Shown here in pieces: positions 2,341 through 32,153 of a DNA stretch of 36,251 bases. The notes under the pieces were generated by a model. It searched no databases. It was not told where the DNA came from and saw nothing but the letters and a program-made list of their open reading frames with translations. The DNA lies in IMG/VR virus record IMGVR_UViG_3300021389_002175, positions 1 to 36,251 of that record, one strand, 5' to 3'. The translations under genes and the position numbers were made by a program. How positions within the stretch are numbered: the stretch's first letter is position 1; each line of letters starts with the position of its first letter. The stretch comes from a virus.

Positions 2341-2881
2341 TCCTGAACAGGGAATAGCACAAGCACTGTTTAAGTTATATCCAGATGCTACCTATATGAG
2401 TAGAAGTAGTGGACATGACTTGGTTGAACGGCGTGGAAGAGAGAGTTTTGCTCAAGAAGCACTTAATCATGACGTTATTATAGTTAACAGTGCACTGTGG
2501 CAGTTTCAACAAACTGTACTACTAGATGCAGTGTACAAGAGCCTAAAGGATGCCAAGAAACTAGCACATATTGTTGTAATTGGTAGTACGACTGATAGAG
2601 TTAAGAACGGCAAGGCATGGTTATACAATGCAGAAAAGAAAGCGTTGCGTGATTACAGTAATACACTAGCAATAGGCGGTGTTTGGAGTCGTATGCCTAA
2701 AGTAAGCTACATTAGTTTTGGTACACTTAGCAATAATGAACACAAACATCCTGACAGGCGTTGTATGGATATAGATCAGGCTGCTGGATATATTAAATGG
2801 ATTATTGATGCTCCACGTGAAATAAATATAAATGAAATAAGTATTGATCCTATGCAAGACGATAACTGGTATGCCCTTTAG
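2324..2881 (+). CDS. SDR-like Rossmann-fold protein
   Basis: A 185-aa protein that reads like a small short-chain dehydrogenase/reductase. It opens with a beta strand and a glycine-containing turn (ISGNPEQGIAQAL), has VVIGS in the usual catalytic-serine strand, and carries YNAEKKAL, the family YxxxK pair, around residue 105. It is shorter than typical SDRs (about 250 aa), and the first glycine motif is degenerate. It may therefore be an atypical member or no longer bind NAD(P). It overlaps the radical SAM genes on both sides. It probably oxidises or reduces an intermediate in the same pathway, which is inference from position. Confidence 0.6.
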   Translation: MLISGNPEQGIAQALFKLYPDATYMSRSSGHDLVERRGRESFAQEALNHDVIIVNSALWQFQQTVLLDAVYKSLKDAKKLAHIVVIGSTTDRVKNGKAWLYNAEKKALRDYSNTLAIGGVWSRMPKVSYISFGTLSNNEHKHPDRRCMDIDQAAGYIKWIIDAPREININEISIDPMQDDNWYAL

Positions 2882-3530
2882 TAGAAATATTAACTATTTA
2901 CATTTTGGTCTTACAAGTAAGTGTACACTCAAATGTCCAGAGTGTGTACGAACAATGAGTAATCCTACGCTTAATACAGTATGGCGTGATATTAAAGAGC
3001 AACGACAAATTGATTGGAAGCAATACCGATCAATTATTAAAGATTTATCATACAACTCAATACTATTTTGTGGTAATTGGGGCGATCCAATATACTATAC
3101 TGGTCTAATAGAGTTTATCGTTTATATTAAAACTGTTACTGATGTTCCTATAGTTATTCACACAAACGGTAGTTATAAAGATGCTAATTTTTGGCGTCAG
3201 TTAGGAACAGTATTACAACAAGATGATAATGTTGTGTTTAGCATTGACGGATTAATAGATGATGACCAATATCGTATTAATAGTGATGCCACTAGTAGAA
3301 GGTTAGGTATTAGTACACTTGCTAATATATTACCCGAAGAAACTCGACCAAGAGTAAGTCAAAAATGTATATTATTTCGTTATAATGAAAATAGAATCTG
3401 GCAAATAGTAACTGAATCTCGCAAACTTGGTTTTGACTGTATAATTTTTGATACGCCTATCACAGATAATAATCCAGATCTGACACCACATTATTTTGGA
3501 GACAGATTCGAGGTACATTTTGATGAGTAG
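2871..3530 (+). CDS. Radical SAM core protein, lacking SPASM domain
   Basis: A 219-aa protein. C18, C22 and C25 (CTLKCPEC) form the radical SAM cluster site. FCGNWGDP occupies the place of the usual GGEP motif, and VFSIDG is a core-domain strand. The reading frame extends upstream to a TTG, but the ATG at 2871 is preferred because it gives only an 11-base overlap with the preceding gene. The protein stops just where a SPASM domain would follow. That domain is encoded separately in the next frame from 3523, overlapping by 8 bases. Family members normally have both on one chain, so the enzyme probably works as a two-subunit complex, unless a frameshift joins them. Confidence 0.8.
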   Translation: MPFSRNINYLHFGLTSKCTLKCPECVRTMSNPTLNTVWRDIKEQRQIDWKQYRSIIKDLSYNSILFCGNWGDPIYYTGLIEFIVYIKTVTDVPIVIHTNGSYKDANFWRQLGTVLQQDDNVVFSIDGLIDDDQYRINSDATSRRLGISTLANILPEETRPRVSQKCILFRYNENRIWQIVTESRKLGFDCIIFDTPITDNNPDLTPHYFGDRFEVHFDE

Positions 3531-3807
3531 TATTGATCCAAAATGTCAATCAACTGATATAAATTACCATGTTGAAATAAACGGATTGTTCTTACCATGT
3601 TGTTGGATAGCTACACATCGTGAAAGTATTAAAGATCTACGTGAAAGATTAGGTGATGATTATGACCTTTTGTTTTTGACAAATAACGATCCTTATAGTA
3701 TAATAGACTTGTGGGAAAAACATATCGAAAGTAGTTGGGAAACAGATACTCCTGTGCCCATGTGCAAAATTAAGTGTACTAAAAAAAGGAACGGCAATGG
3801 AGTTTAA
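3523..3807 (+). CDS. Stand-alone SPASM-like auxiliary cluster domain
   Basis: A 94-aa protein matching the C-terminal third of radical SAM/SPASM enzymes: C8, the GLFLPCCW strand (C26, C27), a 'IIDLWEKH' helix and a final CKIKC (C81, C85). These cysteines would hold an extra [4Fe-4S] cluster. It has no radical SAM core and begins at an ATG that overlaps the stop of the core-only protein before it, so it is read as that enzyme's second subunit. A TTG 27 bases upstream would lengthen it slightly. Its 3' end overlaps the next radical SAM gene by 11 bases. Confidence 0.7.
   Translation: MSSIDPKCQSTDINYHVEINGLFLPCCWIATHRESIKDLRERLGDDYDLLFLTNNDPYSIIDLWEKHIESSWETDTPVPMCKIKCTKKRNGNGV
3676..3704 (+). 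promoter_or_regulatory. Consensus sigma70-type promoter inside a gene
   Basis: TTGACA (3676-3681) and TATAAT (3699-3704) are both perfect hexamers with a 17-base spacer, inside the SPASM-domain gene. Transcription would start near 3711, about 85 bases before the radical SAM gene at 3797, and could give that half of the operon extra early expression. Consensus-like pairs also occur by chance in AT-rich coding sequence, hence the moderate confidence. Confidence 0.45.
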
Positions 3808-4753: not shown

Positions 4754-5283
4754 ATATCACTTTTCACGACACACCAAGCCCATATGCAACAGTTACTGAC
4801 GTATTTGATACTCAAGATTTGCAAACTTTTCAGCAAATTGCGGACCAAGCGCCAATGGGAGATAGCTGGATAGAAAATAATAACATGGACCAATATGCAT
4901 GGAAATTGTATCATAAAATATATCCCACGCTTAATCGAAAAACTCAAGATAGAAACAACTGTCTTGAATGCAGTACTGATGCTAGCTTCTTTAAAATACA
5001 AATAAAAAAACTAGAACCAGGGTTTAAACGTAATCGCATACACACCGACAGTGATTGGAAACAATTTGTTACAGTTGTTTATTTAGATGGACAAGGACTG
5101 GGAACAAAGTTATATGCTAGTAATGAAGGTGACCCTGAGCGTGTTATCCCATATATACACAACACAGGATATTCAATGATACCAAATGCAACTAGTTGGC
5201 ACGATTTTGATCACAGTGCTGACTTTACTGAAATAAGAACTACTCTTATGTTTATACTAGCAAATCGGGGGTTTTATAAATGA
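4750..5283 (+). CDS. Fe(II)/2-oxoglutarate oxygenase-like protein
   Basis: A 177-aa compact double-stranded beta-helix protein. The facial triad is readable as HTD (RIHTDSDW), then a distal histidine in SWHDF, followed 12 residues later by an arginine (RTTLMF) suited to binding 2-oxoglutarate. The VVYLDG and GYSMIPN strands fit the fold. Such enzymes hydroxylate or desaturate proteins, sugars or small molecules using O2. It is coupled by ATGA overlaps to the radical SAM gene before and the CMP-sugar synthetase after, so a sugar or glycopeptide substrate is possible but not shown. Confidence 0.75.
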   Translation: MNITFHDTPSPYATVTDVFDTQDLQTFQQIADQAPMGDSWIENNNMDQYAWKLYHKIYPTLNRKTQDRNNCLECSTDASFFKIQIKKLEPGFKRNRIHTDSDWKQFVTVVYLDGQGLGTKLYASNEGDPERVIPYIHNTGYSMIPNATSWHDFDHSADFTEIRTTLMFILANRGFYK

Positions 5284-6706: not shown

Positions 6707-7436
6707 ATTAACCAGTTATGAGCAATTTGTTGAGTTAAGTAATGACTTTGACCAGCGTGTTGGTACAAAAACTGTATGGTCTAAACTTACAATGTTTGAC
6801 ATATTTGAAAAAATACTAGGAGAAGATAGCTGGTGGGACATTGATTATCAAATTCAAAAATGGGTAGATAATGCTTTTAGTATTAAAACTGAGTTTACTC
6901 AAGATGACCAAGACATACCTCAAAGCCCACTTGGAAAAATGAATAGTGTATATCTTACGTTAAATGATATAAAAAACGGTAAAAATTTTTACAGTCCAAT
7001 AACATTGAGTCTTTTTAAAAACGGTAAAATCCCTATACATCCTGGTTCTACTAGATTGATATTAGCTGATGTATACAATAAACCAATAGACCTTTGTATT
7101 ACTGATTACAACAACAATTTTCGTAAAAGATTTCCAGATGTTGAATTTTTGGAAGTAGAAGACTACTATTTTGATTTTAGTGACGAGATGCATGAGCTAC
7201 ATGAAGATTGGACATGGACTGGACACTGTCCTACCTACGCCAATATGACAGATGACGATGTGCAAATTAAACAAATAAGTACTTACATGATACCTACTAC
7301 TGACGATTTTAGTTTTCATCATCCACGTGATGTAACAATAACTCGATGGTTTCGGTTAAATAATGACTGCATCACAGTCAATGACATGCCAATTGCAAAA
7401 AAGATTGACAATGTATGGAAGATTGTGTTAGAATAA
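6684..7436 (+). CDS. Unknown protein with ParB/Srx-like motif
   Basis: A 250-aa soluble protein. I do not recognise the full-length family. The stretch IPIHPGSTRLILADVY (about residues 112-127) resembles the ParB/sulfiredoxin-type signature in which a G-x-x-R loop binds a nucleotide phosphate. The acidic C-terminal half has no motif I can name. An ATG 18 bases upstream (6666) is possible. I chose 6684 because it leaves a smaller overlap (23 bases) with the hydrolase gene. It closes the first coupled block, and only four bases separate it from the next gene. Confidence 0.6.
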   Translation: MNFPKRTKLTSYEQFVELSNDFDQRVGTKTVWSKLTMFDIFEKILGEDSWWDIDYQIQKWVDNAFSIKTEFTQDDQDIPQSPLGKMNSVYLTLNDIKNGKNFYSPITLSLFKNGKIPIHPGSTRLILADVYNKPIDLCITDYNNNFRKRFPDVEFLEVEDYYFDFSDEMHELHEDWTWTGHCPTYANMTDDDVQIKQISTYMIPTTDDFSFHHPRDVTITRWFRLNNDCITVNDMPIAKKIDNVWKIVLE

Positions 7437-7440
7437 TAAA

Positions 7441-8556
7441 ATGACAGATGATGATTTAAAATGGAGCGAGTATGACTTTACCAAAATCCCGTATGGTGAC
7501 ATTGTCCAAGTTGGACAGCGTACTTTACTTTATAGGGATTTGTTTACTGTGTCTTGGCTTCTTGGCAGGTTTTGCAATTATCGTTGCAGCTATTGCTGGC
7601 CATACGCCCGTTCAGATAGAAAAGATCATAGACCAACCGAGCTATGTCTTAAAACAATCGACGAAATAAAAAGGCAGGCACGTGGCAACGGTTTTAATAG
7701 CTTTCATTTTTCTTTATCTGGTGGTGAGCCTACTTTTCACCCTGGCTATTTGGACATTCTCAAACATCTTGCTGATGATGTTGGTAATACTAATTATACT
7801 AGCGTTCACATGACATCAAACTGTAGTAGACCTATGAAGTGGTTTGAGGATTATGTAGAACGGGTAAAACCATTTCATAGAGCAAGCATTACAGCTAGTT
7901 TACATACAGAACACTTAAATACACGTGACAAGATGCAAGACTTTGCAGACAAGCTAATCTTCTGTCAGGAGCACGATGTACAAGTTACAATCAATATGGT
8001 CATGGTTCCGGAATGGTTCGAAAGAGACTGGGAAAACGCCCTGTTCTTCCACGAGCAAGGAATCAACGTCACACTCAAGCCACAGTCAGATCCCACGGCA
8101 TCAAGAGTCGTGGAAGGTTATACAGACGAAATGCTACAGCGATTGTGGAACGGCATGCCGCAAATGGCGTATACTGAATCGAAACGCAAATGGGCAGATC
8201 GTCCAAGGCCTAGTTTCGAATTGCCGCCTTATGCAATAGGCGACAATGATAAGAGTGTGCCCTGGCACATGCAAGTAGAGTTTACAGACAGTAAAGGAAA
8301 AAAATGGTACATGGACCAAGCGGAGAGATTCAATGCTTTCGGATTTAACAAGTTTGAAGGATGGATGTGTCAAAGTGGGTATAGCGGTATTATTATCCGT
8401 GAGCCTGATGGTAGTATTAAGCGTAGTTATAGTTGTCATGATGTTCCACTAGGTAACATAGAAACAGGATTTAAACTGTTTGATGGACCACGCAAATGTA
8501 TTACACCAGCATGTGTAAGTAGTGCTGATAGTAAAATACCGAAGCGTAAAGTATAA
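7441..8556 (+). CDS. Radical SAM protein with C-terminal cysteine module
   Basis: A 371-aa radical SAM enzyme. C45, C49 and C52 (CNYRCSYC) form the catalytic cluster site, and SLSGGEPTFHP near residue 97 is a textbook GGEP motif. The C-terminal part (WMCQSGYSG, SYSCHDV, KCITPACVS) holds four or more cysteines that probably bind an auxiliary cluster in a SPASM/twitch-like domain. The late-type element at 8552 overlaps the stop codon. Family relatives include maturases of peptides and sulfatases. The target here is unknown. No strong ribosome site precedes the ATG, so it may depend on translation from upstream. Confidence 0.85.
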   Translation: MTDDDLKWSEYDFTKIPYGDIVQVGQRTLLYRDLFTVSWLLGRFCNYRCSYCWPYARSDRKDHRPTELCLKTIDEIKRQARGNGFNSFHFSLSGGEPTFHPGYLDILKHLADDVGNTNYTSVHMTSNCSRPMKWFEDYVERVKPFHRASITASLHTEHLNTRDKMQDFADKLIFCQEHDVQVTINMVMVPEWFERDWENALFFHEQGINVTLKPQSDPTASRVVEGYTDEMLQRLWNGMPQMAYTESKRKWADRPRPSFELPPYAIGDNDKSVPWHMQVEFTDSKGKKWYMDQAERFNAFGFNKFEGWMCQSGYSGIIIREPDGSIKRSYSCHDVPLGNIETGFKLFDGPRKCITPACVSSADSKIPKRKV

Positions 8557-8559
8557 ATA
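8552..8559 (+). promoter_or_regulatory. T4-type late promoter element
   Basis: An exact TATAAATA, the T4 late-promoter -10 box, overlaps the stop of the preceding radical SAM gene. It lies 20 bases before the ATG at 8580, with an AAGAGGAG ribosome site between them. It would give late expression of the 98-aa protein and the oxygenase genes after it. It assumes a gp55-like late sigma factor, which is not in this window. Confidence 0.55.
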
Positions 8560-8579
8560 TTGATAAGAGGAGTGGACTG

Positions 8580-8876
8580 ATGGCACATAAAAGAACATAT
8601 AAAATTCAAACAGCTTCGCTTGCAATGGAAGTAGATTCTACAAATCTAATCAATGACAGTTGTGTAGCTATTCAGAATACATATGTATCAGAAGGAAAGA
8701 TATTAGCTCAAGGTGTTACATATGATGAAACTGATCCAAATATTATGAATGCATGGGTTACATTTGATACAGAAGCTAACTGCATAGCATATTATGATGC
8801 ACTAACAGCGGCAAGCAATGTAGAAACAGATAAAGTGGGCTTAACTATTATAGATGAAACTAACGAAACAGTATAG
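8580..8876 (+). CDS. Unknown 98-aa protein, possible substrate
   Basis: A small protein I do not recognise. It is mixed alpha/beta in appearance, acidic towards the end (TIIDETNETV), with two cysteines and no membrane segment or signal peptide. It has the strongest ribosome site in this block (AAGAGGAG, 6 bases before the ATG) and its own T4-late-like TATAAATA, so it is probably made abundantly and late, like a virion component. It sits between a radical SAM enzyme and an Asp/Asn hydroxylase-like gene, which it overlaps by 23 bases. It could be a structural protein or a substrate of the modifying enzymes. Both are inference. Confidence 0.75.
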   Translation: MAHKRTYKIQTASLAMEVDSTNLINDSCVAIQNTYVSEGKILAQGVTYDETDPNIMNAWVTFDTEANCIAYYDALTAASNVETDKVGLTIIDETNETV

Positions 8877-9435
8877 CTATTTTAAAGAATTATCACATCT
8901 ACCACAACTTAATTTATATAGCGAACTCTCAGAATTAAATCTTGATTACAAGCATAATCAGATATGTCTAAACACTACTAAAGACAAACTAAACGACCCA
9001 TATTATGGTGTCGGTAGTTTAGACTTAGACTATGATAACGAATATTGGGAAACAGATCAAGACGGTAATGAACGTAAAGTAGTGCCGCCTAGATCAGTTA
9101 TGCTTAAAGAATCAGACTTTACAGAACTAGCAACTCCCTTTAAAAATACTTTGTTTGAAGAATTTTATCGTATATTATGCGCAGAATACTCAGTAGGTCG
9201 TGTACGTATTATGCGACAAAATCCCAATCATACATTAAGTTGGCACTGTGACTATAATCGTAGACTACATTATCCATTAAAAACACAACTGGGTTGTCAT
9301 ATGGTGATTGAAGATGAAGTATTACACTTAAAACAAAACACTTGGTATTGGACTAATACTAAAGTATATCATACTGCATTTAATGGCAGTAGAGAAGATA
9401 GATTACATATTGTAGCCTGTCTATTAGAGGATTAA
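8854..9435 (+). CDS. Aspartyl/asparaginyl hydroxylase-like oxygenase
   Basis: A 193-aa Fe(II)/2-oxoglutarate oxygenase of the aspartyl/asparaginyl beta-hydroxylase type. LSWHCDYNRR gives the HxD metal pair, QLGCHMVIEDE is the following strand, WYWTNTKVYH provides the distal histidine, and NGSREDRLHIV gives the family arginine ten residues on. Members hydroxylate Asp/Asn side chains of proteins, or proline and other small targets. The start overlaps the 98-aa gene by 23 bases, so the two are co-expressed. That neighbour is an obvious but untested candidate substrate. Confidence 0.8.
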   Translation: MKLTKQYSYFKELSHLPQLNLYSELSELNLDYKHNQICLNTTKDKLNDPYYGVGSLDLDYDNEYWETDQDGNERKVVPPRSVMLKESDFTELATPFKNTLFEEFYRILCAEYSVGRVRIMRQNPNHTLSWHCDYNRRLHYPLKTQLGCHMVIEDEVLHLKQNTWYWTNTKVYHTAFNGSREDRLHIVACLLED

Positions 9436-9437
9436 AA

Positions 9438-10157
9438 ATGTCAAGATATGGAGATGGTACTTACCTTGAAGCTGACAAATATTTGGCTTTGCATAGTGCA
9501 CCTGTGGTGCCCACTAGTATAGTAATTGATCCTGATGAATTTAATGCAGTTATGCTAGAATACCAGTATGCATTTCGTAGTTGGGGGGAAAAGAAAAAAC
9601 ATTTCCCACGATACGGCTTACCATTAGTAAATGATAATGGAAGTATGTATAACAACCCAGAGCCAGTGTGCTATCCACTAGACGAATGGTTAGAGCATTT
9701 ATCAGAAGAGGATTGGGTATTTGACAGAGACTTTACCACAAAAACACCAGTGTTTGAACACCCAGTATTTGATCCGTTACGAGTATTTGATGGGCACTGG
9801 GCACGTAGTTGTATACTAAGATGGGATAGCGAAAGCTTCTTTTATCCACACAGTGATACTTGGTTGCCAAGTCCTATATTAAGATTGTGGGGAACAACTG
9901 ATCCTGACCATGCACGTTTTCAATTTGATCGTGAATATCGTAGACCAGATACGCCAGGATTAGTACCCAGTATGGATCCAGATATGATAGACTGGCCAGG
10001 CGAGATAGAAGCAGGCCGCATGTATTTGGTAGATACCAGTTTAATACATACAGCCCGTAGTATTGGTGATCATCCTACGCACCAGTTCTTTTTAGCAGTG
10101 CATACTGATGCTTATGACACTATGCAATCAGTATTAGATACAACGTCCAGTATGTAA
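9438..10157 (+). CDS. Fe/2OG-like oxygenase with altered arginine site
   Basis: A 239-aa protein with the oxygenase pattern YPHSDTW (HxD), then RLWGT and MYLVDTSLIHTAR (distal histidine). The arginine expected about 10-12 residues after the second histidine is not there (the position reads THQFFL), so 2-oxoglutarate may be held differently or activity lost. The N-terminal half (PVCYPLDEWLEHL) has no motif I can name. It starts two bases after the preceding gene. Its 3' end overlaps the oppositely oriented TauD-like gene by 24 bases, which marks the strand switch. Confidence 0.6.
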   Translation: MSRYGDGTYLEADKYLALHSAPVVPTSIVIDPDEFNAVMLEYQYAFRSWGEKKKHFPRYGLPLVNDNGSMYNNPEPVCYPLDEWLEHLSEEDWVFDRDFTTKTPVFEHPVFDPLRVFDGHWARSCILRWDSESFFYPHSDTWLPSPILRLWGTTDPDHARFQFDREYRRPDTPGLVPSMDPDMIDWPGEIEAGRMYLVDTSLIHTARSIGDHPTHQFFLAVHTDAYDTMQSVLDTTSSM

Positions 10158-26718: not shown

Positions 26719-27683
26719 CAGTAAAATTTATCCTTTTTAAACTCTCTGTCCTGTGGCGATGCATGTGCCAGATGTCCAATAATATTCATTCCTTTCCGAT
26801 TAAAATAGTCCCCCCATACATTACTACCACATGCAGGTTGAAATATAAGTGGCCATCTAAGTCTACTACCTTCAACTGTTGGATAATTATTTTCCTTCAT
26901 GATTAGTTTAGCACGTTTCCAGTTATCTGTAAAGTGTTTTCTGAACTCAATCATAGGTCCATGTAAAAAAAGTTCTTGTGGAGTTTTATAATTAAATAGC
27001 TTCTTATGTGCCAAGTGATGACTAAACATGATATTTTCATTTACCTTGATGCTACCATTGTTATCTACCATATGTACACCACAAAACACAGCATTGTTTT
27101 CACGAAACCGCTCACGACAAAAATTTTGCTCAACAGAAAACTTAGTAGGTTTGATCGAGTCTTTATCATATGGATCATTATCAGCGGAAGCAAACCATTC
27201 TTCTAAATGTGTAGGATTTGCATACATCCGAAATCCAGTTTGTGATTTAACACGAAATATCCACTTTTCATTTTGTACCATACGCCAACAATCATACCAT
27301 TTATAGTAAATTGCAAGATGACGTCTTAATACATCCCATCTTAACGCAAGTTCATCATTACGATAATATGAAGACAACCATTCATTAATCATCTCACCAA
27401 ACGCAGGATCTTCACCCAGATACCAGTCTACTAGATCATCAAGTACACCATATGTTTCAACATTACATTGGTATGTAATACCCAAACTATCAAATGCATC
27501 ACGGATATCTTGTATATTGTTTTGTGGATGATCCCATGTACTAATATACGCATTAATAGACCCAACGTTCATTTTATCACACCACTCTATTAGAAGTGAC
27601 ATGCTCGTCATAAAATTCTGGCTTTTAATACCGCCATAAGTTAATCCAGGAATTAAGAGTGCTAAATTGTTATTTAAATGCAT
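26718..27683 (-). CDS. Unknown 321-aa protein of the NeuB block
   Basis: A protein I do not recognise. It opens with a hydrophobic strand and glycine turn (LALLIPGLTYGGI), like a Rossmann-type glycosyltransferase, followed by AYISTWDHP. A Trp/Tyr-rich helical middle (LAIYYKWYDCWRMV) and WIFRVKSQTGFRMYANPTH are reminiscent of sugar-transferring enzymes acting with NeuB/NeuA. No catalytic motif is firm. It overlaps the NeuB gene by 14 bases, so transfer or trimming of the acidic sugar is a reasonable guess. Confidence 0.6.
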   Translation of the reverse strand: MHLNNNLALLIPGLTYGGIKSQNFMTSMSLLIEWCDKMNVGSINAYISTWDHPQNNIQDIRDAFDSLGITYQCNVETYGVLDDLVDWYLGEDPAFGEMINEWLSSYYRNDELALRWDVLRRHLAIYYKWYDCWRMVQNEKWIFRVKSQTGFRMYANPTHLEEWFASADNDPYDKDSIKPTKFSVEQNFCRERFRENNAVFCGVHMVDNNGSIKVNENIMFSHHLAHKKLFNYKTPQELFLHGPMIEFRKHFTDNWKRAKLIMKENNYPTVEGSRLRWPLIFQPACGSNVWGDYFNRKGMNIIGHLAHASPQDREFKKDKFY

Positions 27684-29142
27684 TTATACTGATTGCCGTT
27701 TTTCTGTCACTAAGTGATAAATTTTGTATATACTTATTTTGATAATAGCTATCACCTGAGAATGCAGTTGTTGATATTTCTTCAAATACACATCCTGTTG
27801 GACTACTAAAACTGTGCCATGTGTTTGGATTAACAGTCAGTTGGTCACCTGGATATAATACACGACTTGTTCCATACATATTTACGATTAACTCTCCCCA
27901 TAATACTAAAAATGTTTCCTTTTTAATTTTGTGCATATGATTAGGATGACTTTGCCTAGGATGTAAAACTAATATTTTCTTTGCATATTCATTATTCATT
28001 ATGGTAAACAATAAACATCCTGTTTCGTAAAATTTTTCCATTCCAAAATGATGACTTATTTCTACGTAATTATCATTATGAACTACAACTCCTGCACGAT
28101 TCAATAGTGCCCGTGTACTACATATAATACGACCTAATGTAGGATCTTGATGTTTTGTTTCAGTAACCTTTTGATCTTTTTTACCACTAGTTACTGTTCC
28201 TTCAACAAATTCTCCACTAGTAATTCCTCCTTTAAAAGGAAAGGCAAAATATACATCTTCATGTTTTAATGCATGTTGATTTACATTATGTTTTAAATAA
28301 ACTCCACGCTTTAAACTATCGATTGCATTACGTTCTTCTTGTAATATATTGTCACGAGTTGTGCTTCCTAATAATATTTTTGCACGGTTGTATGCTTGAA
28401 ACCATGCAAGACTTTGTTCTGGTGTACTACTATATTCATTGAGTGTTATAGTATTGGTTGCAACTCCGATGTGTCTTTCGAACATTGTTGCTCCTAGTGC
28501 AAGCGCAAGTCCTATTTGTTCAAGATCATCTTGGGGCTCGTGCGTACTCCATCCGATATAAACTCCTGGGTATCTTTTGCGCATAGTTTTGATGTTTAAT
28601 AGGTTACATGCTTCGGCAGGTGTTGGATAGATACTTACACAATGCATTAATGAAAAATTAACATTTCTACTCCTGAAGAAGTATACCAGATCGTCAATTT
28701 CTTCGAAACTAAGTCCACCTGTACTTGCAATAATAGGCAATCCGCTGTTTACTGCTTTTTTTAGTAGAGGCCAATCTTTTGCACTGCAACTTGCAATTTT
28801 AAGTATATCAAATCCTAGTTCAATAATTTTGTCAACACTAGCTTCGTCGAACGGTGTACAAATAGCAAGCATATTATTATTATGTACATGATCTACAAGT
28901 GTCTGGTAGTCTTTCCATGCTAACTTTGTATTTAAAAATCTAGAAACATGTTTATTTGTGCTTGATTTACGATCTTCAGGATGTATAAAGTTAGGTAAAT
29001 CTCGAAATTGAAATTTAATGCCTGCACGTACACCGGCGGTTAGTACAGATTTATGATGCATATCAATAATTTTTAGACCATGCTGTAACGATCCTTGGTG
29101 ATTGTTTGCCATATCTAATACGAATAAGTTATTAAACTGCAT
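27670..29142 (-). CDS. neuB: NeuB-like acidic sugar synthase, cupin fusion
   Basis: A 490-aa protein with three parts. Residues 1 to about 260 form the NeuB TIM barrel (LFVLDMANNHQGSL, GIKFQFRD, ICTPFDEASVDKI, LKIASCSAKDWPL, ASTGGLSFEEID, GWSTHEP). An SAF-type domain follows (RGVYLKHNVNQHA, FPFKGGITSGEF). The third part is a C-terminal cupin (HPRQSHPNHMHKIKKE, VLWGELIVNMYG). NeuB joins a sugar with phosphoenolpyruvate to give a sialic, legionaminic or pseudaminic-type acid. The frame extends upstream, but the ATG at 29142 has AGGA before it and fits the family start. The NeuA-like gene lies just upstream. Confidence 0.85.
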   Translation of the reverse strand: MQFNNLFVLDMANNHQGSLQHGLKIIDMHHKSVLTAGVRAGIKFQFRDLPNFIHPEDRKSSTNKHVSRFLNTKLAWKDYQTLVDHVHNNNMLAICTPFDEASVDKIIELGFDILKIASCSAKDWPLLKKAVNSGLPIIASTGGLSFEEIDDLVYFFRSRNVNFSLMHCVSIYPTPAEACNLLNIKTMRKRYPGVYIGWSTHEPQDDLEQIGLALALGATMFERHIGVATNTITLNEYSSTPEQSLAWFQAYNRAKILLGSTTRDNILQEERNAIDSLKRGVYLKHNVNQHALKHEDVYFAFPFKGGITSGEFVEGTVTSGKKDQKVTETKHQDPTLGRIICSTRALLNRAGVVVHNDNYVEISHHFGMEKFYETGCLLFTIMNNEYAKKILVLHPRQSHPNHMHKIKKETFLVLWGELIVNMYGTSRVLYPGDQLTVNPNTWHSFSSPTGCVFEEISTTAFSGDSYYQNKYIQNLSLSDRKTAISINAFK

Positions 29143-29821
29143 AATGTTCCTGCCAATAATGTGTATAGATATCAAACTGCCACTCATAATCGATATCTAA
29201 GCATTCAAATTCGTCCATAACAAATAGTTCAGGATTATTTTTAGTAAAATCTCCCATCCATACGTTTTGTCCTATTAGGTCTAATCGTCCTGCATACAAT
29301 CCATGGGCCGCTTCATAAGTGGGATCTACTAGCTTAGTATTCATAAACGTAGTTCCTTCGGGCCAATCAGTAATTAGATCTCCTTGTTTGTTCCAATAGT
29401 ATTGCTTTTTGTCCATAACACTAAACATACCGTCATGCGTACTATTCAAGTACTCATCTACAAATCTGTCTATTGTTTCAGGTGACATTAATATTAAACA
29501 AGGATTAAACAACACCGCATATTGATACTGCGGAAACTTATCCCACCATTCATACATAACAGGTAGCTGTTTTTCTTCGTTACGACTTTGTATACTACGT
29601 TTATAAACATTAACTTCATGCTTGTTACATATATCAATGAGTTCTTGATCGCAAACACTTGCGTAAAAGTTTTCCATTGGTATATTGGTTTGTTTAATCT
29701 TATTAATGAATATTTCAAATAAACATGTACCTGCAAATTCTCTTGTCATTTTTGCAGGTACACGTTGACTATTAGTTCTTGCTTGTACTATAAACAGAAC
29801 GTCTTTAATGTTTTTAGTCAT
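29132..29821 (-). CDS. neuA: NeuA-like CMP-sugar cytidylyltransferase
   Basis: A 229-aa nucleotidyltransferase beginning VLFIVQARTNSQRVPAKM, the CTP-binding signature of CMP-acylneuraminate synthetases. CLFEIFINKI, LFNPCLILMSPETIDRF and the C-terminal DIDYEWQFDIY place follow as expected. It would activate the sugar acid made by NeuB as a CMP-sugar. An in-frame ATG at 29902 overlaps the upstream gene too far. The ATG at 29821 overlaps by 8 bases and starts at the right place for the family. The sugar specificity is not readable. Confidence 0.82.
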   Translation of the reverse strand: MTKNIKDVLFIVQARTNSQRVPAKMTREFAGTCLFEIFINKIKQTNIPMENFYASVCDQELIDICNKHEVNVYKRSIQSRNEEKQLPVMYEWWDKFPQYQYAVLFNPCLILMSPETIDRFVDEYLNSTHDGMFSVMDKKQYYWNKQGDLITDWPEGTTFMNTKLVDPTYEAAHGLYAGRLDLIGQNVWMGDFTKNNPELFVMDEFECLDIDYEWQFDIYTHYWQEHYAV

Positions 29822-30089
29822 CAGTAGCAACATCCATAGCAACACCTCGACATAGATCGTTAAACCATAGGTCGACAATTGCTTCTGGTGTTTCTCCTGC
29901 ATAACCCGCTTCGCCTAATAGTCCAACAAAGTCATCATTCCAATCTAATTCAAAATAACCACGAGTAGGATTATCTTTATCAAAATGTACTTCAACTACC
30001 TTAACCCACGGACCAACAGCATTTTCTTTTGTTACTTCATCGCCAGTTTGTACTTTGCGATTTCTTACTAGTTTATTCCACCATCCCAT
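29814..30089 (-). CDS. Unknown 91-aa protein
   Basis: An acidic protein (MGWWNKLVRNRKVQTGDEVT, then NAVGPWVKVVEVHFD and GYFELDWNDDFVGLLGEAGY), resembling small conserved proteins of T4-like marine phages. The function is unknown. It ends with an 8-base overlap on the NeuA-like gene and follows metK by three bases. Confidence 0.75.
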   Translation of the reverse strand: MGWWNKLVRNRKVQTGDEVTKENAVGPWVKVVEVHFDKDNPTRGYFELDWNDDFVGLLGEAGYAGETPEAIVDLWFNDLCRGVAMDVATDD

Positions 30090-31259: not shown

Positions 31260-32153
31260 CTAAGTTCCCCATGCGTTTCCGAAGAGCGAGATGTGAAGTC
31301 TTGGGGTAAAACGCCAGCCCCTTTCCATACATGCTTCTGCGACATCTTTGACGTTGAGGTTGTACTCTTCCGACCTACCACCGAGAGGCATAAGGTATAC
31401 AGGGCATTCCACGCCGTTGTCACGATACGCTTGAACAGCCCGAGTAACTTCATCGAAGTCATTATTACTAGCGACAACAAACTTGAAATAAATGTCGCTA
31501 CCGTCAACAAGGCTATACTCATGAGCAACATCAGGCAATATAGCAGTTTCCCAAGGTTCTCCTGAAACGCTAAGTTTTGGGGAACAACTCCAAGTAACTT
31601 CAAATCTGTCTTGAGTATTGAGATAGTTGTAGAAATCGTCGTGTAATTTTTGTGTAGTATTTGTTTCAAATGTAACATTCTTTAAATCTTTCATACGTGG
31701 ATGCTCGAACAATTCAATGTACAATCGTTGCCACGCCAACAACGGTTCACCGCCAGTCATAATTAAGTGTATGTCCTGGCCATTGTCCATAGTCCATTTG
31801 CCTTCTGGCGTTAAACTTAACAAGTGTTCCACTACTTCATCTACAGTTGCAAGACGGTTAAAGTCTTTAAACTCGGGATAAATGCTTGCATATGTATCAC
31901 AACCTGTGTGAATAATAGGCAAGTCTTCAAACTTTTCTGTTGTTTCATGTACGCCAGAATCAAGTAACGCTTTTACTTCTGCATTGTATCGCTGACCATC
32001 AGCATGTTGTTGCCAACGGTCTCGCTTTTCATCTGTGCCAAAGTTCATACAACGAAAGTTACAACCAAAAGTACGTAGGAACACACTTGGTACTCCTACG
32101 TATTTACCTTCTCCTTGAACACTGTAAAAAGCTTCACTATATCTAAGTTTCAT
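31260..32153 (-). CDS. queE: 7-carboxy-7-deazaguanine synthase, unusual motif
   Basis: A 297-aa QueE-type radical SAM enzyme. YSVQGEGKYVGVPSVFLR is the family start, the MTGGEPLL motif binds SAM, and the typical C-terminal RLHISLFGNAWGT is intact. The cluster motif is expanded: C31 and C35 (CNFRC) are followed not by xxC but by about 49 residues before C85 in TGCDTYAS, which matches the usual CDTxYA. QueE converts carboxytetrahydropterin to the deazaguanine precursor. With FolE upstream it gives two of the four steps. QueD and QueC are not in the window. Confidence 0.88.
   Translation of the reverse strand: MKLRYSEAFYSVQGEGKYVGVPSVFLRTFGCNFRCMNFGTDEKRDRWQQHADGQRYNAEVKALLDSGVHETTEKFEDLPIIHTGCDTYASIYPEFKDFNRLATVDEVVEHLLSLTPEGKWTMDNGQDIHLIMTGGEPLLAWQRLYIELFEHPRMKDLKNVTFETNTTQKLHDDFYNYLNTQDRFEVTWSCSPKLSVSGEPWETAILPDVAHEYSLVDGSDIYFKFVVASNNDFDEVTRAVQAYRDNGVECPVYLMPLGGRSEEYNLNVKDVAEACMERGWRFTPRLHISLFGNAWGT

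Follow-up and report, generated by a model that had tools for sequence, protein, structure and literature searches.

The DNA analyzed here, called the window, comes from a marine tailed phage and is a 36,251-base IMG/VR fragment. Within it, an ATG-initiated ORF of 98 codons lies between an upstream radical SAM gene (PF04055) and a downstream gene of the Asp/Asn beta-hydroxylase family (PF05118, 35.5 bits versus a cut-off of 22.6), the arrangement given in a preliminary description of the locus (Table 1). The last codons of the 98-aa gene contain the start of the hydroxylase gene, with an overlap of 23 nt (8854 versus 8876), and an oxygenase-like gene without a Pfam match follows in the same direction. 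Sequence comparison shows that the 98-aa ORF is a real gene: two diverged homologues keep its frame, its length (91 to 92 aa), and 19 positions that are invariant in the three-sequence alignment. The sequence AAGAGGAG, located 8 to 15 nt 5' of the ATG, forms a duplex of -9.8 kcal/mol with the anti-Shine-Dalgarno sequence. This ribosome-binding site, previously described as the best in the block, is indeed the strongest among the 13 plus-strand genes, but it shares that rank with the site of the gene at 5280.

Table 1. Features at the 98-aa gene locus, in window coordinates
Feature	Position	Strand	Evidence
Radical SAM enzyme, cysteines at the C terminus, highly conserved among marine phages	7441..8556	+	PF04055, 6e-16
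TATAAATA, late-promoter-like element over the radical SAM stop codon	8552..8559	+	Exact match; ATAAATA enrichment in relatives; kept in three homologues
AAGAGGAG, ribosome-binding site	8565..8572	+	Anti-Shine-Dalgarno duplex energy
98-aa protein, predicted ferredoxin-like/DABB-type fold	8580..8876	+	ORF list, homologues, AlphaFold models, structural matches
Asp/Asn beta-hydroxylase-family gene (PF05118, Asp_Arg_Hydrox), 23-nt overlap with the 98-aa gene	8854..9435	+	Pfam match, 1e-8; Mosig homologue
Codirectional downstream gene with HxD...H pattern (oxygenase-like by eye)	9438..10157	+	ORF list; homologue near all three 98-aa genes

The octamer TATAAATA was confirmed at the position reported earlier, 28 nt before the ATG of the 98-aa gene, where it covers the TAA stop codon of the radical SAM gene (8554 to 8556). 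The exact octamer is rarer than expected in the window (1 site versus 5.75 expected), so its presence by itself means little, and it was rejected as stand-alone proof of a promoter. Motif statistics were compiled from 64 non-redundant loci, each surrounding a relative of the radical SAM gene, with gene-upstream sites defined as those 15 to 65 nt before a gene start. In these loci, ATAAATA is scarce overall (182 sites, versus 257 to 633 for the permutations listed), and 62 of its 182 sites (34%) are gene-upstream, compared with 638 of 13,510 (4.7%) for 20 permuted heptamers pooled (Fisher, 7e-35). The orientation control is weaker: 28 of 182 sites (15%) are gene-upstream for the reverse orientation, and intergenic placement by itself may thus explain about half of the excess, although the sense-strand excess over the reverse orientation stays about two-fold. 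Elements of the TATAAATA type therefore occur upstream of genes beyond chance, virion genes included. In the relatives, genes of all kinds stand behind the motif (nitroreductases, hydroxylases, desaturases, radical SAM genes, and tail-fiber-type genes, with names partly assigned by reading the sequences), and gene 25 (gp25, baseplate wedge) of the cultured Pelagibacter phage Mosig is preceded by it. The gp23 genes of two relatives have no ATAAATA within 90 nt upstream; there, gp23 directly follows another gene.

All three known genes of the 98-aa type keep the motif, as T/C/A-ATAAATA, 26 to 32 nt before the ATG. In the window and in one homologous locus (L010), ATAAATA contains the radical SAM stop codon, whereas in the other (L013), it is read within the radical SAM frame, showing that the element survived a change in that frame. 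The octamer, the distance to the start codon, the gene-upstream enrichment of NATAAATA, and the position before Mosig gp25 all resemble T4-type late promoters; the difference is that the first base of the octamer is degenerate in these phages. Because of the upstream excess of ATAAATA and its occurrence before Mosig gene 25, a T4-like late promoter at 8552 to 8559 is plausible. The 98-aa protein is probably made late in infection, in agreement with the preliminary description, whose proposal of late expression gains support from the enrichment in relatives, from Mosig gp25, and from the conservation of the motif in the three homologues despite the frame change. What the motif marks is the start of a late operon, not a substrate: 14 of the 64 loci have ATAAATA where the radical SAM gene ends, and the small gene is present in only three of them. 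For pelagimyophages, methods developed for middle and late promoters of cyanophages were reported to give unsatisfactory results (PMC7029224); NATAAATA offers a usable late-promoter signature for these uncultured marine phages.

Homologues of the 98-aa protein were found in only 2 of 80 radical SAM loci, namely, L010 (92 aa, 37% identity) and L013 (91 aa, 32% identity). The three proteins share an N-terminal MA[HY]KxTxxIQ stretch, and their alignment contains no conserved Cys. A profile search of 50 whole records recovered no homologue beyond the same two (2 records carry one and 48 do not), and IMG/VR scans that used each of the three members, or a degenerate DNA motif for the N terminus irrespective of the presence of a radical SAM gene, yielded only these two contigs besides the window; other IMG/VR hits of the DNA motif encode unrelated proteins. 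With any of the three members as the query, no homologue was found among INPHARED phages. No PDB chain matched by sequence at an E value of ≤10, and Pfam gave no match, DABB families included, for any of the three at a maximum E value of 10 with filters that drop most weak matches. PHROGs returned no virion-protein family for the 98-aa protein, and phrog_16618 (E value, 0.03) matches only one of the three members and was not trusted. A 112-aa protein encoded behind a late promoter in a similar layout was considered as a relative and rejected (hhalign probability, 0.4%). Its gene, preceded by TATAAATA, lies two genes downstream of the same radical SAM gene (L112, 8263 to 8598; L128, 5001 to 5336), and its match to the DABB protein SP1 is very weak (E value, 0.05).

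The DNA similarity of the two homologous loci to the window extends across the radical SAM gene and the promoter and is lost after roughly the first 30 nt of the small gene; at the protein level, the radical SAM enzyme is 90% identical, versus 32 to 37% for the small protein. The best reading of these comparisons is that the 98-aa gene is fast-diverging and exchangeable. Across IMG/VR, 295 stretches match the radical SAM gene, and the 80 kept are 82 to 94% identical to it; mean column identity in an alignment of 11 sequences is 89%, and no NCBIfam model hit it above the curated cut-off. The enzyme is thus near-invariant amid otherwise hypervariable marine phage regions. The slot behind it is itself hypervariable, holding a nitroreductase, a hydroxylase, an acyl carrier protein, another radical SAM enzyme, or other genes, genome by genome. 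For example, at 7146 to 7379 of three loci (L041, L044, and L046), it is occupied by an apparent acyl carrier protein, with a desaturase-like gene next in line. The radical SAM enzyme also has orthologues (58 to 65% identity) on Bdellovibrionota MAG contigs, several of which are hundreds of kilobases long; one contig carries a glycosyltransferase (GT2) domain gene near the orthologue, and no homologue of the small protein was found at these loci. Two other conserved radical SAM genes, or at least one of them, usually lie beside the Bdellovibrionota orthologues (L114, L116, L118 to L122, L124, and L125).

Among the downstream neighbors, relatives of the hydroxylase are present in 39 of the 80 radical SAM loci, and a homologue of the oxygenase-like gene at 9438 lies near all three genes of the 98-aa type. 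AMP-binding and nitroreductase genes are found behind the 98-aa homologues; in L013, an AMP-binding (adenylate-forming) enzyme is encoded two genes behind (8078 to 8776). The window also encodes NeuB, a cytidylyltransferase, fatty-acid desaturases, TauD-type and other oxygenases, and radical SAM enzymes, a regional gene set that, judged from sequence, is closer to sugar/lipid tailoring than to peptide maturation. The pelagimyophage host recognition cluster likewise forms a hypervariable block that includes radical SAM and sugar genes, and an aspartyl/asparaginyl beta-hydroxylase belongs to the core genes of those phages (PMC7029224). Unlike them, the window is not placed in the pelagimyophage clade, and its MoxR-like ATPase is nearest to those of Pseudomonas PA5oct-type phages (43%).

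Two AlphaFold models of the small protein, built with different lead sequences on an alignment with a depth of three, both have a beta-alpha-beta-beta-alpha-beta topology (pLDDT 74 and 83), the monomer arrangement of the DABB/ABM superfamily. The best structural match is 2OP5 for the first model (Z 9.6, 94 residues, 2.7 Å) and RslO4 for the second (Z 9.3, 85 residues, 2.7 Å), scores only somewhat over the typical background for small alpha/beta models. DABB proteins dominate among the 50 matches listed per model, including ABM, LsrG, IsdG, MhuD, SnoaB, OAC, and the marine proteins 2OP5 and 2OD6, both of which are among the best matches for both models. The protein resembles DABB/antibiotic biosynthesis monooxygenase-type proteins (ABM, LsrG, IsdG, SnoaB, and OAC) in predicted topology and length and can be aligned structurally with them over the full length (Z about 7.5 to 9.6); it differs from them in having neither a sequence-profile match nor an identified active site, and identity in the structural alignments is 3 to 16%. 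As sequence-family support is absent (PDB and Pfam), the protein is predicted to be compact and DABB-like by fold only and is filed in no DABB family. The DABB/ferredoxin-like fold is common and by itself shows no function. The structures 2OP5, 2OD6, and 2OD4, the last also among the matches, are "dimeric ferredoxin-like" proteins from an uncultured marine organism; they resemble the 98-aa protein in length and share its marine origin but are only 6 to 10% identical to it, with no sequence match at an E value of ≤10, and have been described only as novel metagenomic families (PMC2557142).

Our preferred reading, a tentative one with somewhat less than even confidence, is that the 98-aa gene is the first gene of a late operon and encodes a DABB-like, exchangeable accessory of sugar/lipid tailoring rather than a dedicated substrate of its neighbors. 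The short operon would comprise the 98-aa gene, the hydroxylase gene, and the oxygenase-like gene and would start at the T4-like NATAAATA promoter within the 3' end of the radical SAM gene. Comparison of sequences establishes the gene itself, its homologues, the motif statistics, the variability of the slot, and the occurrence of the enzymes without the gene; only a few genomes carry the 98-aa gene in this slot. By its predicted fold, the product would be a compact protein of the DABB kind, probably a homodimer, and we infer that its most likely role in the region's sugar/lipid tailoring pathway is that of a small accessory that binds a ligand or catalyzes without a cofactor, a placement read from the gene neighborhood alone.

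Alternatively, the gene might encode a small host-takeover, counter-defense, or superinfection protein that entered the slot by gene exchange and is unrelated to the neighboring enzymes. Its very fast divergence next to conserved neighbors, its presence in few genomes, and the free exchange of slot contents are what such a protein would show, but genes of this type are often early rather than late, and the three copies share the slot behind the same radical SAM gene, with the oxygenase-like gene near each; we regard this explanation as unlikely. A late, unmodified minor virion or assembly protein is similarly unlikely. It would account for the late-type promoter and the strong ribosome site, and the motif also precedes Mosig gp25 and tail-fiber-type genes of relatives; in pelagimyophages, moreover, the hypervariable region with tail fibers and radical SAM cassettes lies within the structural region (PMC7029224). 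Nevertheless, structural genes are not the only ones with the motif, the PHROGs search points to no virion family, and most relatives that have the same region lack the 98-aa protein.

The preliminary description had proposed that the protein is a substrate of the flanking enzymes, the radical SAM enzyme at 7441 and/or the hydroxylase at 8854. All three homologues are encoded directly downstream of the radical SAM gene, as a RiPP-like precursor would be beside its maturase, the N-terminal stretch is conserved, and the gene overlaps that of the hydroxylase. Against this, the maturase orthologues are accompanied by the putative precursor in just 2 of 80 loci, 2 of 50 whole records, and none of the bacterial loci, and the alignment lacks a conserved Cys. 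Homologues lacking the neighboring enzymes, which the same description had named as evidence against its proposal, were found in part: the hydroxylase lies one gene away from the homologue in L010 and is missing beside that in L013, whose contig contains, well away from the gene, no more than a distant partial match of 31%, whereas the radical SAM gene adjoins all three. Furthermore, the late motif fronts the enzymes themselves, and the predicted fold is compact and of the DABB type, not that of a leader/core precursor. Since both enzymes usually occur without the 98-aa protein, sequence data make a dedicated substrate unlikely, indeed less likely than either of the two preceding explanations; a dedicated precursor-maturase pair is very unlikely because both enzymes recur without the small protein in phage loci, as does the radical SAM enzyme in Bdellovibrionota. 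The shared position of all three homologues directly behind the radical SAM gene means that the protein may still have a partner role with that enzyme. Improbable, too, is a broader scheme in which swappable DABB-type catalytic or carrier proteins complete late small-molecule tailoring pathways (radical SAM, oxygenases, nitroreductase, AMP-binding enzyme, and acyl carrier protein), with the slot deciding the final product.

With an attractive but unsupported substrate story removed, the substrate of the near-invariant radical SAM enzyme, with its Bdellovibrionota orthologues, seems the more interesting question, and the enzyme the better target. Elsewhere in the window, a NeuB domain is fused with a D-lyxose isomerase/cupin-like domain on the minus strand (27670 to 29187), adjoining the cytidylyltransferase-like gene (29132 to 29902), a possible nonulosonic acid branch. 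A QueE-like gene (31260 to 32153, minus strand) has the radical SAM motif CNFRCMNFG, without the third cysteine of CxxxCxxC. Finally, a radical SAM ORF at 2844 to 3530 ends and a cysteine-containing, C-terminal-like ORF (3496 to 3807) carries on in another frame; the pair resembles an enzyme that has been frameshifted or split.
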